This document shows, piece after piece, positions 7,523 through 42,462 of a stretch of 47,636 nucleotides of DNA. A program made the position numbers and the translations under genes. A model generated the notes under the pieces. The model was not told where the DNA came from, did not search any database, and saw only the letters and a list, made by a program, of their open reading frames with translations. Within the stretch, counting starts at the first letter, position 1, and every line of letters starts with the position of its first letter. Source of the DNA: Deltaproteobacteria bacterium (GTDB lineage: Bacteria; Desulfobacterota; Binatia; UBA9968; JAJDTQ01); NCBI GenBank assembly GCA_026712905.1, contig JAPOPM010000112.1, positions 1 through 47,636 of the forward strand. The letters are read 5' to 3'.

Positions 7523-8338
7523 ATGTCGGTCATCATGATCTACGAGGGTATCCATGGCGCGGAGGAAGTCGCCAACCGGGTCGCCAAGTCCCTGGATTAC
7601 AAGTGCGTGGGACGGCAGGATCTGGCGGCCACTCTGCCGAACTACGGCGTGCCGCGCGCCAAGCTCGACGACATCACGGAGAAGGAGCCGCACTGGTGGG
7701 AACAGTGGCTCCAGGACTTGCGGCCCTACCGCATCGCGCTCCAGGCCGCCATGTGCGAAATCGCTCAGGCCGGCCCGATGGTCTACCACGGACACGTGGG
7801 GCACGAGCTCCTTCCAGGAGTCCCCCATGTGCTCAAGGTCTTGCTGACCGGCTCCATGGAGTTGCGCATCGACCTGCTCCGGTCACGCCTCGCGGTGGAC
7901 GAAGGCACCATCCGCAAGCAGCTCGAACACACCGACCGGGCCCGTAGCCGGCGGCTCATGTCCCTGTTCGGCGCCGACTGGCAGGACGCGACCCGGTACC
8001 ACCTGGTGCTGAATCTGGCCATGGGCGTGGACGCGGCCAGCGAGGTCATCAGCACCACGGCACGGCTCGCGGCGTTTGCCGAGACGTCGGCCTCGATGCA
8101 AGCCTTCGAGGACCTCGCCCTGGCCAGGAAGACCCAGGCGACACTGCTCCAGTCCGACCTGTACCGCGGCCTGCCCATCGACGTGAAGGCGCACAACGGG
8201 ACGGTGACAGTGTCCGGCATGGTCTCCCCGCCGGTTACGGTGGAGGGCGTGGTGGCCACCATCAAGGCCATTCCCGACGTCGGGGAGGTGACGGCGAATC
8301 TCGTGGTCGTGCCGCGAAGCCATTCCGACATCGAATAG
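7523..8338 (+). CDS. Cytidylate-kinase-like protein fused to a BON domain
   Basis: This 271-residue protein starts at an ATG with a strong AAAGGAGGG site just upstream. Residues 1-195 resemble the cytidylate-kinase-like family (Cytidylate_kin2) in layout, including a GHVGHELLPGVPHVLKVLLTGSMELRID core and a DxxRxRRLMSLFGADWQD helix. The N-terminal nucleotide-binding loop reads MIYEGIHGAEEVANRVA instead of the usual glycine-rich, Lys- or Arg-containing P-loop, so kinase activity is doubtful. Residues about 205-265 form a BON domain (GLPIDVKAHNGTVTVSGMV...VGEVTANLVVV), a fold that binds membranes or ligands. No signal peptide is visible. The UbiD gene follows 120 bp downstream on the same strand. 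A sensory or regulatory role is possible, but its function is unknown. Confidence 0.7.
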   Translation: MSVIMIYEGIHGAEEVANRVAKSLDYKCVGRQDLAATLPNYGVPRAKLDDITEKEPHWWEQWLQDLRPYRIALQAAMCEIAQAGPMVYHGHVGHELLPGVPHVLKVLLTGSMELRIDLLRSRLAVDEGTIRKQLEHTDRARSRRLMSLFGADWQDATRYHLVLNLAMGVDAASEVISTTARLAAFAETSASMQAFEDLALARKTQATLLQSDLYRGLPIDVKAHNGTVTVSGMVSPPVTVEGVVATIKAIPDVGEVTANLVVVPRSHSDIE

Positions 8339-8458
8339 CCGGGCCGCCCGGAGAGAGCGCCGCCGCTCAAGGCTACCTTGTCCGGGGCCTCCGCGCGTAC
8401 GCGGCACTGCAACAGCCCGGCGCGTGGACGCGCGCGCCCCGGATCAAGGACCGACCCT

Positions 8459-9904
8459 ATGCCCAAGAGCCTGCGGACCTTCCTCGAAGACTGCCGCCGT
8501 GAAATCCCCGCCGAGGTGGTGCACGTCGAGCGGGAGGTGGACCCCGCCCACTACGACGTGAGCGCCATCATCAAGCACCTGGGCGCCGCCCGGAAGTTTC
8601 CCATGCTCATCTTCGAGCGGCCGCGCAACCTGCACGGACGCGTCGGCGATTTCAAGCTGGTGATGAATTTCACCATCTCCCAGCGCAAGACCCAAATCGC
8701 CCTCGGCCTGCCCAAGGAGATGACGCGCGCACAGATGGCCGAGGCCTGCGTGGACATCGAGCGCAACCGCATGGCGCCCGTGGTGGTGGAAAACGGCGAA
8801 GCGCCGGTGATGGAGAACGTCCGCGGCGGCGACGACGTGGACCTCTACGAACTGCCCATCATGCGCCACCACTACATGGACGGTGGCCCCTACATCACCC
8901 TGTGCACCATCGCCAAGGACCGCCGGCAAGGCATCTACAACGCCTCGTATCACCGCATGGAGATCAAGTCGAAGAACCACACTTCGCACTACCACTCACA
9001 GCACCACCAGTGGATCATCTTCCGCGACTACGAGGACCAGGGCCTGGAATGCCCGGTGGCCACGGTGCTGGGACACCACCCGGCGTTCTACATGGGCGCG
9101 TGCTACACCGGCCCCTTCGAGGTGAGCGAATACGACGTCATCGGCGCCTACCTGGGCGAGCCGCTGCGGGTGACGCCGTCCACCACCTGGGGCGACGACC
9201 TGCTGATCCCCGCGGACGCGGAGATCGTCGTCGAGGGCGCGCTGATCCCGGGCGAGCGCATCGTCGACGGCCCCTTCGGCGAAGCGCCCGGCTACCTCGG
9301 ACCGCAGCGCTTCTTCTCGGCCTGCCGCTACGAGGTGCGCGCCATCAACTTCCGCAACAAGGGCATGTACCAGTCGGTCATCACCCCCGAGGGCGACAAG
9401 CCCTGGCTCGACCTGCCGCGGGAGGGCGCCTACCTGCGGCGCATCCGCGAGGCCGTGCCCGGGGTCACCGCCGTGTGCAAGGCCGGACGCCACGCCCACT
9501 ACAACATCTTCATCGCCATGAAGAAGATGTCCGAGGGCGACCCCGGCCGCGCCGCGGCCGCCGCCCTCACCGAGCTCCACGCCAAGCACGTCTTCGTCTT
9601 CGACGACGACATCGACGTCTACAACCCCACCGAGATCCTCTGGGCCCTGGCCACCCGCGTGCAGCCCCACCGGCAGGTGTCCATCATGCAGCCCACCTTC
9701 ACCGGCAACTACCTCGACCCCACGGTGGTGGACGAAACCAAGACGTCGGTGATGATCGTCGACGCCACCCGCCCCCTGGACCGCCCCTTCTCCCCCGTCT
9801 CCAAGGTCCCGGACGAGGCCATGGCGCGCATCAAGGTGGAAGACTACATCCCCGGCGAAGTGCTGGCGCACATCCCCGTGGACCGCACCACGTACTGGTC
9901 CTGA
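8459..9904 (+). CDS. UbiD-family prenylated-FMN-dependent decarboxylase
   Basis: This 481-residue protein starts at ATG 8459, 8 bp after AAGGA. The frame is open further upstream, but that part is low-complexity and lacks a ribosome site. It matches UbiD in length and landmarks: ITLCTIAKDRRQGIYNASYHRM (prenyl-FMN and metal region), the GPFGEAPGYLG loop with the conserved acidic residue, and a C-terminal VDETKTSVMIVDATRP segment. UbiD enzymes reversibly decarboxylate aromatic or alpha,beta-unsaturated acids using prenylated FMN made by UbiX. No UbiX or ubiquinone-pathway gene is adjacent. The neighbouring Mo-hydroxylase suggests a catabolic role toward an aromatic or heteroaromatic acid; that is inference. 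Confidence 0.9.
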   Translation: MPKSLRTFLEDCRREIPAEVVHVEREVDPAHYDVSAIIKHLGAARKFPMLIFERPRNLHGRVGDFKLVMNFTISQRKTQIALGLPKEMTRAQMAEACVDIERNRMAPVVVENGEAPVMENVRGGDDVDLYELPIMRHHYMDGGPYITLCTIAKDRRQGIYNASYHRMEIKSKNHTSHYHSQHHQWIIFRDYEDQGLECPVATVLGHHPAFYMGACYTGPFEVSEYDVIGAYLGEPLRVTPSTTWGDDLLIPADAEIVVEGALIPGERIVDGPFGEAPGYLGPQRFFSACRYEVRAINFRNKGMYQSVITPEGDKPWLDLPREGAYLRRIREAVPGVTAVCKAGRHAHYNIFIAMKKMSEGDPGRAAAAALTELHAKHVFVFDDDIDVYNPTEILWALATRVQPHRQVSIMQPTFTGNYLDPTVVDETKTSVMIVDATRPLDRPFSPVSKVPDEAMARIKVEDYIPGEVLAHIPVDRTTYWS

Positions 9905-37334: not shown

Positions 37335-37478
37335 CTACAGCAACTCCTTGCCGACCGGCTTGGCGTCAATCCAGGTACGATCCTCGGACCCAGGGGTCTC
37401 GTTCTCGTCGCACTGCGCTAGAAGCTCATCAAGGGAGTAGCAGGGACGAGCCCTGGGCTCATCAGTCAAGCGTTCCAT
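37335..37478 (-). CDS. 47-residue MazE-type antitoxin tail (orphan)
   Basis: The small frame begins at ATG 37478, two bases after the VIT-VWA stop codon. A strong AAGGAGGGG site lies inside the last codons of that gene, so it is translationally coupled. The product contains PCYSLDELLAQCDENE and ends WIDAKPVGKELL. These two segments are the toxin-binding C-terminus of MazE/PemI-type antitoxins (YxLDELLAQCD ... W...PVGxE). The AbrB-like DNA-binding half is missing, and there is no MazF-like toxin gene on either side. It could be a remnant, or a genuine minimal antitoxin neutralising a toxin encoded elsewhere. Confidence 0.6.
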   Translation of the reverse strand: MERLTDEPRARPCYSLDELLAQCDENETPGSEDRTWIDAKPVGKELL

Positions 37479-37480
37479 AG

Positions 37481-39772
37481 TTATCGCCCCTCCTTCACCG
37501 TACGTTCCTCCTTGACCGTCGTAGTATAACGCACCCCCCGCGGCACCGGCACCGCCTGATGCACGGTAGTGCCGTGCTTTCCTTCGGTGCGCCCACTCGC
37601 GTCCACCGCGACGAAGGCCGTGTAGTCGGACATGAGGCCGTACTCCAGTGCGGTCTTCTTGATGGCGCCGGCCAGCTCGTTGTGGGGGTCGTGGGTCCAG
37701 GCTTGGCGGTCGGCGAGGTCGGCGAGGCGAAGGCGCGCCCAGATGTTGGGGATGAAGGCGTGCGCGTTCTCTCCGTCGGCCTGGGACACCATGTATTCGA
37801 CGCGCTGTCCGCCGGCGCGGCCTCGCACGACGGGCTTGCTTGGCTCGCCCGTGAACTTGCCGGTGACCACCACGGCGCGGCCGACGAAGACATCGGGCAG
37901 CCGTTTCGGGTAGGTGTCGGTCACCTTCATCGTTCCCCAGTCGATCTCAACGTCCGAGAGCACCGGGCGGCTGATGCGGTTGAAGAAGTAGCGCATGACT
38001 TCCGCGCCGGCATCGTCCAGGGCCAGGTAGGCGGCGGCGCCGCGCCCTACCTTGGCCATGCGGTTCAGGAGATAGCGGTTGACCGAGTCGCCCACGCCGA
38101 AGCTGAAGATTCTCGACTCCCGGATGGACTTGTGGATCGCGTCCAGTATCTCGGCCTCGTTGCCGATGTAGCCGTCGGTCAGGAAGGTCACGAAGCGCAG
38201 CCGCCGGGGGTCGTGGGGGAAATTCAGAGCGGCGCGGATGCCTTCGATCATCTCCGTGCCGCCGCTGCCGTCGAGTTGCCGGACGTAACGTTTCGCCCGG
38301 GCGACGTTCTCCGGCGTGGCGGGAACGGGGTTCGGCCCGAACTGACTGGCGTTGTTGGAGAAGCGGATGACCTGGAAGGTGTCTCCGGGTTTGAGCATGT
38401 CCAAGGCCGCGAGAATGGCCGCCTTGGCCTGGGCGATGGGCTCGCCCCGCATGGAGCCGGAGCAGTCCAGCACGAACACCATCTCCATGGGATGCCGCGG
38501 CGCGGAGTCGAGATCTTCGGGCGGATACAACACCATGGTGAAGTAACCCTGCCCCTTCTTGGGGTCCACGTAGGTCAGGAGGTTCGTCTTGACGCGCCCG
38601 CCCGCCACCTTGAACTTGAGGACGAAGTCCCGGTTGGGGATCGTCGCCTGGTCGGCGAGCTTGATGGTGGCGGCATGGGGGGCCGCGCGGGTCTGATCGA
38701 TGCGGTGGTTCGACTCCATGGCCTCGATGGCGACGCCGGCATCGAGCTTCACCGTGATGCCGATGTCGTGGCCCGATCGTTCCTCGGGGCGCAGATAGCG
38801 CACGCCCGCTCCGGTGGATACGGGTTGAACGTGTGAGCGCGGCAGCGCGTGCACGGGGTCCTTGGAGCCGGGCGGGTTGTAGCGCGGACCGACCACGGTG
38901 GGGAGCACGAACGTGTACCAGCCGTCGCGGTAGGCCAGCGAGTGGAAGTAGCGGATGTTCACGTCGATGCGCTTGCCGGGCTCGATGTTGGCCACCTTCT
39001 GCTCGAAGATGTTGGGGCGGTGCTGGGTCAGAAGGCTCGCCTGGTAGCCTTGCGCGCGCGCCTCCCGATAGATGGCCTCGGCCTCCTCCTTTTCTCTCAG
39101 GATGCCGCGTATGCGGCGTTCGCCGATGGTCATGACGAACTCGCTCACCGCCGCCTTCTCGGGCAGTGGGAACATGTAGACCGCCTCGATCTTCTCGTCG
39201 AAGGGGTTCGCAAACTGTTGGGTGACGTCCACCGTGCCGACGTAGCCGGTGATCGCCGCGTGCACCTCGGTGTGCTTGAGAGGAAGCGGGACCTCCGCCT
39301 CGTGCTTGTCGCCGGAGGGTCGGGTAGCCACAAGCGCCCCCGAGCCCGGTTGGCCCGGCTCCGCCGGGGTTGGATCGGCATCGGCCGGCCGACGCGGCAC
39401 GATGATCCACAGCTCTTCATCCGCGTCCAGAGTCCGCACCGGCGCCGTCACGACGTCGAAGAACGCTGATTGAGCCATCAGCGGCGCAAGTGCGCTTCCA
39501 CCTCCCCCTCTCCCTTTCCTGAAAGAGCGCGGCCTCAAGGATTGCGCAATGGGCGAGCTGGTACTGTCGGCCCCGCGTTCGAATGCAGGCCCGGCTGCCG
39601 GCGGAGACGGGACACCGGAAACCTGCCCGGTGGCGTCCTCGGGGGAGGCCAGCCCCGAGGGGACGCCACCCGGCTCGGAGTCCGGCGGCCCGGGGGCGCA
39701 TGCCGCCACCACCAGCAGCACGCACAGGGCGGCCACGGTTTTCCATGCATTGGCGATTCCTTGCTGTTTCAT
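37481..39772 (-). CDS. VIT and VWA domain lipoprotein
   Basis: This 763-residue protein starts at ATG 39772, overlapping the upstream stop by four bases. The signal sequence ends in LVVAAC, a lipobox placing Cys25 at the mature N-terminus. After a low-complexity linker comes a VIT domain (about 150-270: HAAITGYVGTVDVTQQFANPF, MFPLPEKAAVSEFVMTIGER). A von Willebrand A domain follows (about 395-570: FVLDCSGSMRGEP, giving the DxSxS MIDAS site; TFLTDGYIGNE), then a C-terminal beta-rich part. It resembles the marine proteobacterial sortase-target VIT family, but a lipid anchor replaces the sorting signal. It is the main product of the ECF-sigma operon and probably mediates surface protein interactions. 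Confidence 0.9.
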   Translation of the reverse strand: MKQQGIANAWKTVAALCVLLVVAACAPGPPDSEPGGVPSGLASPEDATGQVSGVPSPPAAGPAFERGADSTSSPIAQSLRPRSFRKGRGGGGSALAPLMAQSAFFDVVTAPVRTLDADEELWIIVPRRPADADPTPAEPGQPGSGALVATRPSGDKHEAEVPLPLKHTEVHAAITGYVGTVDVTQQFANPFDEKIEAVYMFPLPEKAAVSEFVMTIGERRIRGILREKEEAEAIYREARAQGYQASLLTQHRPNIFEQKVANIEPGKRIDVNIRYFHSLAYRDGWYTFVLPTVVGPRYNPPGSKDPVHALPRSHVQPVSTGAGVRYLRPEERSGHDIGITVKLDAGVAIEAMESNHRIDQTRAAPHAATIKLADQATIPNRDFVLKFKVAGGRVKTNLLTYVDPKKGQGYFTMVLYPPEDLDSAPRHPMEMVFVLDCSGSMRGEPIAQAKAAILAALDMLKPGDTFQVIRFSNNASQFGPNPVPATPENVARAKRYVRQLDGSGGTEMIEGIRAALNFPHDPRRLRFVTFLTDGYIGNEAEILDAIHKSIRESRIFSFGVGDSVNRYLLNRMAKVGRGAAAYLALDDAGAEVMRYFFNRISRPVLSDVEIDWGTMKVTDTYPKRLPDVFVGRAVVVTGKFTGEPSKPVVRGRAGGQRVEYMVSQADGENAHAFIPNIWARLRLADLADRQAWTHDPHNELAGAIKKTALEYGLMSDYTAFVAVDASGRTEGKHGTTVHQAVPVPRGVRYTTTVKEERTVKEGR

Positions 39773-40239
39773 TTGCGCTTTCTCCCTGACTGGATGTCGA
39801 GATGAATGGCGGCGGGTACGGGCTTGCCCTCGGCGTTGCCGGCCGTGACCAGTCTCAGAACGTAATCGGGTCCGGAGTCGCCGGTGAGGCGAACGTGAAC
39901 GGTCGCGATGCGAACCCTGCCCACCGGCAGTTCGTTGCCGGGCCGCAAGGTGAAATCCGCGACGATGATGCGGTCGGCGCGCCCGTCGTTGACAGCCTTG
40001 CGATCGTAGTAGGGGGCCTTCGGGAATGCCGGACTGTCCCCGTTTTCGACCCCCACCACGCGCATCCGGCCGCCGGCTTCGGACAACTCGAACTGCCATG
40101 CCGCCACGGGCTCGGCGGTTTCCAGGTGGACGTCGAGCGCCGCGAAACGGACCGTCGTCTCTTCCGCGAACGACCAGCCGGGCAAAGCGGCCGCGCAAAA
40201 GACGAAGCAAAGTAGAATATTCAAGCGCCAGCGGCTCAT
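39769..40239 (-). CDS. Secreted cohesin-like protein
   Basis: In this 156-residue protein residues about 7-25 form a signal peptide (LLCFVFCAAALPGWSFAEE). The rest is a single beta-rich domain: VRFAALDVHLETAEPVAAWQ leads, MRVVGVENGD and YYDRKAVNDG follow, then ADFTLRPGNELPVGRVRIATVHVRL. The order of strands and the ENGD ... PYYD ... P-x-G-x-x-R-I-A-T-V-H-V-R pattern recall cohesin-type modules, which bind dockerins. Assignment is by pattern only. It overlaps both neighbours by four bases, and the gene immediately upstream encodes a dockerin-like calcium loop, which supports a cohesin-dockerin pairing in the periplasm. Confidence 0.55.
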   Translation of the reverse strand: MSRWRLNILLCFVFCAAALPGWSFAEETTVRFAALDVHLETAEPVAAWQFELSEAGGRMRVVGVENGDSPAFPKAPYYDRKAVNDGRADRIIVADFTLRPGNELPVGRVRIATVHVRLTGDSGPDYVLRLVTAGNAEGKPVPAAIHLDIQSGRKRK

Positions 40240-40724
40240 AGCTTCTCCGCGGAACCTTCCAACGCAACGATGCTCATGGCCAGGGCGTCGACCTTCGCCC
40301 GAGCGGCTGGCGCCTGGTCGCCGCGCGCCATCCGGGCCAGAGCAAAGGCGTCGAGAATGTCTACGGCGCCGGAGCCGTCGATGTCGTCGGGTATGCTGGC
40401 GACCGTAGCGACCCGGAGGTCGGCGGGTCCCACCGGGGTGTACGTTCGCCAAAGAAGGACCCCCACCAGGAGGCTCGCAGCCAGGCTTCCGGCCATGGCC
40501 CAACGAAACCCGGCCGGGCGCGCGCGCCGCGGCCGGTCGGCGAAGTGATCCTTGGCCGCCTCGGCGATATGTCGGTCTGCCTCCGGCGACATGACCGCCA
40601 CCGTCCTGTCGAGGCGGGCGAGCCCCTGGATCAAATCCTCGGGCAGGTCGATCTCTTCCTCGGCGGACGGCACGCCGCGTCCCGGTTGCGTGGGCAAGAT
40701 CCTTGTGTCGTCGTCGCGTTCCAT
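40236..40724 (-). CDS. Single-pass membrane protein with a dockerin-like calcium loop (putative anti-sigma or sensor)
   Basis: This 162-residue protein has an acidic cytoplasmic part (1-73), one membrane helix (about 74-93) and a periplasmic tail. The tail contains DIDGSGAVDILDAF, an F-hand calcium loop with Asp114, Asp116, Ser118, Asp122 and Asp125 at ligand positions and the following ALARMARG helix, as in type I dockerins. Only one good copy is present, where dockerins usually have two. The gene follows the ECF sigma gene by 38 bp. Gene order plus topology suggest an anti-sigma factor or signal sensor, but no zinc-binding anti-sigma motif is present, so that role is inferred. Confidence 0.65.
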   Translation of the reverse strand: MERDDDTRILPTQPGRGVPSAEEEIDLPEDLIQGLARLDRTVAVMSPEADRHIAEAAKDHFADRPRRARPAGFRWAMAGSLAASLLVGVLLWRTYTPVGPADLRVATVASIPDDIDGSGAVDILDAFALARMARGDQAPAARAKVDALAMSIVALEGSAEKL

Positions 40725-40762
40725 GGTTCCACCCGGTTAAGCGCACGACACGGGCAAAAGGT

Positions 40763-41344
40763 TCACGCTTTGCCGAAATCCTTGATCTCGGGGCTTTCCC
40801 GCAGTTCCCTCACCGCAAGGTGGAGCCGGGACTTGACTGTGCCGAGGGGTATGGAAAGGGTGTCCGCGATGTCCTGCAGCGACATGTCGTCGACGAAGCG
40901 CAGGAACAGCACCTCCCGGCGCTCGGCGGGCAGGCGGGCCACGGCCGCCGACAACCGCGCCGGGTCCCGCTCCGCCGGATCGGTGCCGCCGGGCGCCGGC
41001 AACCGATCCGGATCGAACTCCTCGGAGTCGTCCAGGCGGGCGCGTTGGCGCAGGGAGGAGAGGGTCAGGTTCTTGGCCACCGGATAGAGCAACGACCGGA
41101 GCTGCGCCGTCAGCACCAGCCCTTCGCCCGTGGGGGGAAACTTCTTGAGCAGGTAGAGAAACGTCTCCTGCAGCACGTCGACGGCCGCGTCCGGGTCGGC
41201 GCCGAACCGCAGGGCCACCCGAGTGACGTAGTCGCGGTGCCGCCGGTACAGCGTTTCAAAGGCCTGCACCGCCTCATCGCGGTGGCCGCGGTTGCATAGC
41301 TCCACCAGCTCCCTGTCGCTGCGTCGGTCCAACGCCTGTGCCAT
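40763..41344 (-). CDS. ECF-type RNA polymerase sigma-70 factor
   Basis: This 193-residue protein has sigma region 2 at about 25-90 (FETLYRRHRDYVTRVALRFGADPDAAVDVLQETFLYLLKKF) and region 4 at about 135-185 (ARLPAERREVLFLRFVDDMSLQDIADTLSIPLGTVKSRLHLAVREL). It is the first gene of an operon running to 37335. Upstream on the minus strand, TATACT (plus positions 41354-41359) is preceded 17 bp earlier by TTTCCC (41377-41382), a weak sigma-70-like promoter. The ATG would then lie very close to the transcription start. The likely regulon includes its own operon. Confidence 0.92.
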   Translation of the reverse strand: MAQALDRRSDRELVELCNRGHRDEAVQAFETLYRRHRDYVTRVALRFGADPDAAVDVLQETFLYLLKKFPPTGEGLVLTAQLRSLLYPVAKNLTLSSLRQRARLDDSEEFDPDRLPAPGGTDPAERDPARLSAAVARLPAERREVLFLRFVDDMSLQDIADTLSIPLGTVKSRLHLAVRELRESPEIKDFGKA

Positions 41345-41892: not shown

Positions 41893-42303
41893 TCATTTCG
41901 ACAACGCCCGCAGAACTTGGCGGTCATCGTGCATGATCTCATCGGCCAATGCGACTTGGCGGCCCGTTTCCGGCTCATCGAGTGCAACGCTGACCCTGCC
42001 AGCCCGCTTGCGAATTGTCTGGCGAATGACGATCTCCACATCACGCCCCAGGGCCGTCAACAAACGAAAAAGGCGCTCCATGGAATACTCACGAAAATCT
42101 CCTCGCAGAAGCCGTGAAACATCGGGTTGGGCCAATCCAAGCAATCTCGCCGCCTCGACCTGTTTGAGGCCACGCCGGCGAATAATCTCTTCAATGCGAC
42201 TGACGAGTTTCGCCTTCAAGAGGTGCGCGTCCGCCTCAGGGTGCCCGAGATCACTGAACACGTTGCCGCTACTCCGTTCAATCCTGGTCTCTTTCCTATC
42301 CAT
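41893..42303 (-). CDS. HigA-like XRE-family antitoxin/regulator
   Basis: This 136-residue protein is taken from ATG 42303, seven bases after GAAGGA; an ATG six codons upstream lacks a ribosome site. The helix-turn-helix lies at about 32-80 (LVSRIEEIIRRRGLKQVEAARLLGLAQPDVSRLLRGDFREYSMERLFRL), the pattern of antitoxins paired with Gp49-like HigB toxins. The toxin gene directly upstream has been reduced by an internal deletion. A perfect palindrome (42468-42489) upstream of that remnant is the likely autoregulatory operator. Confidence 0.85.
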   Translation of the reverse strand: MDRKETRIERSSGNVFSDLGHPEADAHLLKAKLVSRIEEIIRRRGLKQVEAARLLGLAQPDVSRLLRGDFREYSMERLFRLLTALGRDVEIVIRQTIRKRAGRVSVALDEPETGRQVALADEIMHDDRQVLRALSK

Positions 42304-42307
42304 TGCG

Positions 42308-42462
42308 TTATCCTTCGCCATCGTAGGTTTGGCTATAGTGTCGTTCCGCCGCCTTCAACCTGCGTTTGATCAAATCGATTTCCGACTTGGGCGTCTCCGC
42401 ACCCCGTTGTCCTCCCTACTTGAGCCAACCCATTCGACAGGCTTCAGCGTCGTACCGGCCAT
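42308..42462 (-). pseudogene. HigB (phage Gp49-like) toxin gene with large internal deletion
   Basis: From ATG 42462 the frame reads AGTTLKPVEWVGSSREDN, the N-terminus of Gp49/RelE-type toxins (KPVEWVGSSxxDL). It then continues out of register and stops after about 30 residues. In a second frame, directly before the antitoxin, ETPKSEIDLIKRRLKAAERHY matches the toxin C-terminus (KTPxxEIxLAKxRLxx) and ends at TAA 42310-42308. Roughly 60-80 central codons are gone and the two ends are joined out of frame. No active toxin can be made. The antitoxin and operator remain intact. Confidence 0.72.

Follow-up and report, generated by a model that had tools for sequence, protein, structure and literature searches.

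Dockerins are calcium-binding plugs and cohesins the matching sockets, a pairing known from cellulose-digesting complexes. In the RpoE-RseA-RseB-RseC system of Enterobacteria the genes are ordered as a sigma factor, a single-pass anti-sigma factor and an exported regulator, RseB, whose fold is unrelated to cohesin. RsgI anti-sigma factors carry carbohydrate-binding or enzyme domains on the outside and pair with SigI, not with an extracytoplasmic function (ECF) sigma factor, and we know of no RsgI with a dockerin or with a partner cohesin. The operon analyzed here has the gene order of RpoE-RseA-RseB and lies on a 47,636-nucleotide stretch of DNA (the window) from a Deltaproteobacteria bacterium, on contig 112 of a 4.8-Mb genome whose closest named relatives are metagenome-assembled genomes (MAGs) of Candidatus Binatia. 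In the enterobacterial system the exported regulator RseB binds the outside domain of RseA and shields RseA from DegS (PMC3944529). A corresponding contact is predicted in the window operon, but with a cohesin as the exported partner, a dockerin as the receiving domain and a VIT-VWA lipoprotein in fourth place. SigI-RsgI biomass sensing in Clostridium thermocellum likewise involves a membrane anti-sigma factor with an outside domain from the cellulosome world (PMC11557425). Use of cohesins and dockerins beyond cellulose breakdown has a precedent in Planctomycetota, in the noncellulosomal domains of the proposed 'planctosome' (PMC6461901), a surface enzyme complex to which that paper links no sigma or anti-sigma factor.

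The operon consists of four consecutive - strand genes: the first is for an ECF sigma factor, the second for a single-pass membrane protein, the third for an exported protein and the fourth for a VIT-VWA lipoprotein. The genes are as tightly packed as the sequence-only reading had described, with a 38-nucleotide gap, two successive ATGA overlaps and, ahead of a 47-residue open reading frame (ORF), a 2-nucleotide gap. The sigma factor (193 residues, 40763-41344) matches Pfam Sigma70_r2 (3.8e-8) and Sigma70_r4_2 (3.4e-15), exceeds the NCBIfam sigma70-ECF cut-off and, as expected of an ECF sigma factor, has regions 2 and 4 only. By analogy with RseB, we consider it rather probable that the operon is an envelope-signaling cassette in which the exported cohesin docks on the dockerin of the anti-sigma factor and gates sigma release. 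With slightly less assurance, we lean towards a broader proposal, in which cohesin-dockerin recognition would act as a signaling switch: an anti-sigma family, mostly of Planctomycetota but also transferred to other phyla, would be controlled by reversible docking of a cohesin from the same operon.

The exported protein (156 residues, 39769-40239) carries a signal peptide, and some of its divergent relatives are lipoprotein-like. Searched directly, it had no match in Pfam, NCBIfam or PDB sequences; its nature was revealed only through the family alignment and the fold. An AlphaFold model built with 40 family members has a predicted local distance difference test score (pLDDT) of 91.9. When this model was compared with the PDB using Foldseek, ranks 1-7 were all cohesins (best E 6e-4), with a noncellulosomal cohesin of Archaeoglobus in rank 2. 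VIA-align placed 44 cohesin rows ahead of the first other fold (Z up to 9.9, root-mean-square deviation 2.9, 116 residues), and several of the top structural matches come from cohesin-dockerin complexes. Pfam Cohesin (PF00963) matches 5 of the 40 family members at E 0.1 or better. The window protein has no match to it; the relative L056 passes its cut-off (24.7 vs 24.1 bits), and a profile of divergent members, L056 among them, picks up the window protein at 3e-12. By its predicted fold, the protein is a cohesin, with the domain at approximately residues 28-150 (39790-40158). It had been called cohesin-like from its sequence, with structure prediction named as the check, and the model bears this out.

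The membrane protein (162 residues, 40236-40724) has one transmembrane helix at residues 72-95 (40440-40511; hydropathy peak at residue 73), and DIDGSGAVDILDAF occupies residues 114-127, C-terminal to it. Because arginines precede this helix, the C-terminus and the DIDGSGAVDILDAF loop are placed outside the membrane. Residues 114-125 (DIDGSGAVDILD, 40350-40385) form a canonical dockerin/EF-hand calcium loop 1, and these columns are conserved across close relatives. The second dockerin helix, whose calcium loop has been lost, was assigned to residues 138-161 (40242-40313) from the alignment to the two-loop relatives L015, L021 and L022 and from a helix in the model. A hidden Markov model (HMM) built from Planctomycetota dockerin members only, without those of Binatia and Gammaproteobacteria, matches the window protein at 3.8e-8. 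Pfam Dockerin_1 is found at E 0.1 or better in 28 of the 36 upstream proteins of the family (best 4.4e-11). At least one calcium loop is retained in all 36 aligned dockerin members; many Planctomycetota relatives have both, in some other Planctomycetota it is loop 1 that was lost, and the gammaproteobacterial dockerins resemble that of the window in having both helices and loop 1 only. The AlphaFold model of this protein is mediocre (pLDDT 70.8, predicted template modeling score 0.28) and had no PDB match in Foldseek, so it was used for helix positions only.

The same relatives bear on the function of the membrane protein. The NCBIfam anti-sigma model matches 18 of the 36 (best 3.2e-11) and zf-HC2 matches three. 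An HxxxCxxC zinc anti-sigma motif is present at the N-terminus in eight (L040, L041, L050 and L053-L057); a single transmembrane helix comes next and the dockerin last, with a long coiled coil between them in some. Because 8 of the 36 dockerin relatives still carry the classical zinc motif, the window protein is very likely an anti-sigma factor. Its position beside an ECF sigma factor and its topology fit a class I anti-sigma factor (ASDI). The sequence-only reading had taken this protein to be the anti-sigma protein and had put its calcium loop outside; the topology and the zinc-motif relatives with the same outside dockerin support both assignments.

A search of the genome collection with the VIT-VWA protein gave the first loci, and a profile of the 156-residue protein was then used alone. 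The VIT-VWA search led to Binatia, a Gammaproteobacteria MAG, a Myxococcales MAG, a Phycisphaeraceae MAG and other Planctomycetota. In ORF listings the gene order is identical in L009-L013, L015, L021 and L022; the Myxococcales contig starts inside the cohesin gene. With the profile, the cohesin family was found in 32 of 392 Planctomycetota sampled (about 8%), in 2 of 229 sampled Gammaproteobacteria and in 1 of 237 sampled Myxococcota. Among 58 relatives it is restricted to one genus of Candidatus Binatia, that of the window, and one genome of this genus (G001) has neither a cohesin-family gene nor a dockerin anti-sigma gene. Outside Planctomycetota the spread is patchy, which suggests that the cassette was transferred laterally.

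Gene order was counted in 42 loci with wider flanks. A sigma factor gene lies upstream on the same strand in 33 of these, a VIT-VWA gene downstream in 31, and all four genes are present in 25. A dockerin-bearing gene directly precedes the cohesin gene in 40 of the 42, a count made with a dockerin profile built from the same loci, so that the independent figure is the 28 of 36 from Pfam Dockerin_1. The two loci without a dockerin are L014, which starts at a contig edge, and L076, in which approximately 1.1 kb upstream is without one. When loci were chosen via the cohesin alone (L059-L091, n = 33), the dockerin gene was upstream in 32. We estimate from a Pfam scan that dockerins make up approximately 1-2% of genes in the richest Planctomycetota genomes, and the adjacency of dockerin and cohesin genes in dozens of diverse loci is thus not attributable to chance. 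In the four Planctomycetota genomes scanned, the operon dockerin was over the Pfam cut-off in all, and was the best of 64 in G125. That the four-gene module moves as a unit is well supported by this adjacency across phyla, and the neighborhood survey that the sequence-only reading had called for thus found its gene order in relatives from several phyla.

Pairwise distances are correlated among all four proteins (0.45-0.60, with 0 of 500 shuffles as high), and for the cohesin and dockerin proteins the correlation is 0.55 (0 of 500 shuffles). With the other two genes allowed for, the dockerin protein tracks the cohesin (0.32) better than it tracks the sigma factor (0.18) or the VWA protein (0.12). 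We regard the co-varying distances as modest support for a physical cohesin-dockerin pair. From adjacency, one-of-a-kind status, co-inheritance and fold, the dockerin of the operon's anti-sigma factor is the probable partner of the exported cohesin.

Several points weigh against this reading. The partial correlations are small and control for shared descent only in part. Pfam does not match the window dockerin, in which calcium loop 2 is lost; both helices are kept, only loop 1 is canonical, and dockerin type I (PF00404) is defined by two EF-hand-like calcium loops with a helix after each. The anti-sigma N-terminus lacks the zinc motif and its family match is weak (0.24). Upstream of the sigma factor gene, an ECF-type promoter element could not be distinguished in an alignment of five relatives, in which conservation is high throughout. 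The loss of the zinc motif is no obstacle, because zinc and non-zinc types of class I anti-sigma domains are mixed within groups (PMC7406223). The two proteins might also not bind at all: the dockerin would then be a C-terminal calcium domain of a generic kind, and the ligand of the cohesin-fold protein would be something else. Dockerins are widely used in Planctomycetota, a shared fold does not show function, and calcium loops have been lost in several dockerin members, all of which would fit such a case. We nevertheless think it quite improbable, given how far the adjacency in cohesin-chosen loci exceeds the gene background, the loop kept by every aligned member and a co-variation that is highest with the cohesin.

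The window genome, like relatives of it, encodes a single cohesin-family protein and a single dockerin anti-sigma protein, from adjacent genes, and contains no Pfam cohesin. In the window genome no Pfam dockerin is over the cut-off; where a cellulosome would have a multi-cohesin scaffoldin and dockerin enzymes, there is a single-domain cohesin only, in line with the earlier suggestion of signaling unrelated to cellulosomes. The sole other dockerin-like sequence found in this genome is part of a repeat protein (L092 2129-2734; G000 contig 24, 11128-11733) with two near-identical dockerin-like loops (DVNGDGEVNEDDAL) approximately 80 residues apart.

Dockerin numbers are very different in some Planctomycetota genomes (G061, G060 and G125), which have 44-64 dockerin matches at E 0.1 or better (44 in each of two Phycisphaeraceae/Planctomycetota genomes and 64 in a third), one or two cohesins of the operon family and no Pfam cohesin. 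Such genomes would suit a titration sensor, in which the lone cohesin is shared among the anti-sigma factor and other exported dockerins and gauges the dockerin load of the surface. We find this unlikely, since the carriers in Binatia and Gammaproteobacteria have no Pfam dockerins over the cut-off, and in the window genome the repeat protein is the sole further dockerin-like protein found. Cohesins of other families may have been missed.

The VIT-VWA lipoprotein (763 residues, 37481-39772) has a VIT domain at 38948-39280 (Pfam VIT, 3.1e-35) and a VWA domain at 38033-38485 (Pfam VWA_3, 5.8e-21), with a VAAC lipobox and an intact metal-ion-dependent adhesion site (MIDAS), DCSGSM. The lipid-anchored VIT-VWA protein of the sequence-only reading is thereby confirmed. 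In its relatives, MIDAS is intact in 28 of 31 and a lipobox is present in 26 of 31. The protein shares its VIT-VWA architecture with TIGR03788, the marine proteobacterial sortase target (483.3 bits), but it is below the curated cut-off of 551.65 bits, has an N-terminal lipobox and lacks the LPXTG-type (sortase-type) C-terminus. Longer VIT-VWA proteins of Acidobacteria and Poribacteria (L017-L020 and L023) were set aside, as their genomes have no detected cohesin of the operon's family. Directly after the VIT-VWA gene, five loci from two phyla have a gene for a lipoprotein of approximately 250-270 residues (L013 3946-4746; L015 7938-8717; L021 about 7900-8692; L068; L090). The two members that were scanned had no Pfam match; this lipoprotein is likely a fifth module member outside Binatia.

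Since cohesin-dockerin pairs elsewhere are assembly devices, the pair could be a tether and not a switch. The anti-sigma factor would then anchor the cohesin, and through it the VIT-VWA protein, at the membrane, and the input to the sigma factor would be separate. The frequency of the VIT-VWA gene (31 of 42 loci), with MIDAS intact in most, would agree with this. However, divergent Planctomycetota loci (L080, L081, L083-L086 and L089) have the sigma factor, dockerin anti-sigma factor and cohesin without a detected VIT-VWA gene. Because the trio persists in this form, the cohesin-dockerin pair does not serve the VWA protein solely, and we give the tether only a small chance. For the same reason, we view the sigma factor, dockerin anti-sigma factor and cohesin as the core and the VIT-VWA protein as a common fourth partner. 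In the divergent trio the anti-sigma factor is of the zinc type with a long coiled coil or a proline-rich linker, and the cohesin is in some cases a lipoprotein. These loci are perhaps a second subfamily of the same signaling design.

In the envelope-signaling cassette that we favor, the sigma factor would be kept at the membrane by the single-pass anti-sigma factor with its outside dockerin. The exported stand-alone cohesin would bind this dockerin in a calcium-dependent manner and, as RseB does on RseA, would shield or lock the anti-sigma factor. If a competing ligand, low calcium or the VIT-VWA lipoprotein removed the cohesin, the anti-sigma factor would become open to regulated proteolysis, and the sigma factor would be freed. 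The VIT-VWA lipoprotein may serve the cohesin as a ligand or load sensor, or it may be what the response mainly produces. Control could also have the sign opposite to that of this RseB-like model.

The sequence-only reading had counted an 'antitoxin tail' as a fifth operon gene, and this part did not hold. For the 47-residue ORF (37335-37478, - strand), the match to ChpS is confined to the C-terminal 34 residues of the antitoxin (NCBIfam ChpS 2.9e-7, profile positions 49-82 of 83). At the corresponding place in a relative (L011 8299-8978) there is a ChpS-ChpB-like toxin-antitoxin pair that is intact, and other phyla have no such pair there. We therefore consider the ORF to be the debris of a broken neighbor, outside the module. 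An HTH_37 antitoxin-like gene (window 41893-42321) precedes the operon and shares its strand. In relatives, this gene comes after a short toxin-like ORF (L009 3055-3447).

In the open-licence literature, where a passing mention is possible, our searches turned up neither a dockerin anti-sigma factor nor a sigma factor operon that includes a cohesin. To that extent the earlier view that no described system has this layout still stands. The operon is of the ECF sigma/anti-sigma kind, possibly with a new use of cohesin-dockerin recognition. If this is true, some cohesins and dockerins would have a function far from any cellulosome, and ECF sigma factor control would gain an outside input of a new type. 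As cohesin-dockerin pairs are already used in engineering, a natural pair that is wired to transcription would find direct use. The operon is small and testable, and approximately 8% of the Planctomycetota sampled have it; this phylum has a wealth of ECF sigma factors that are uncharacterized.

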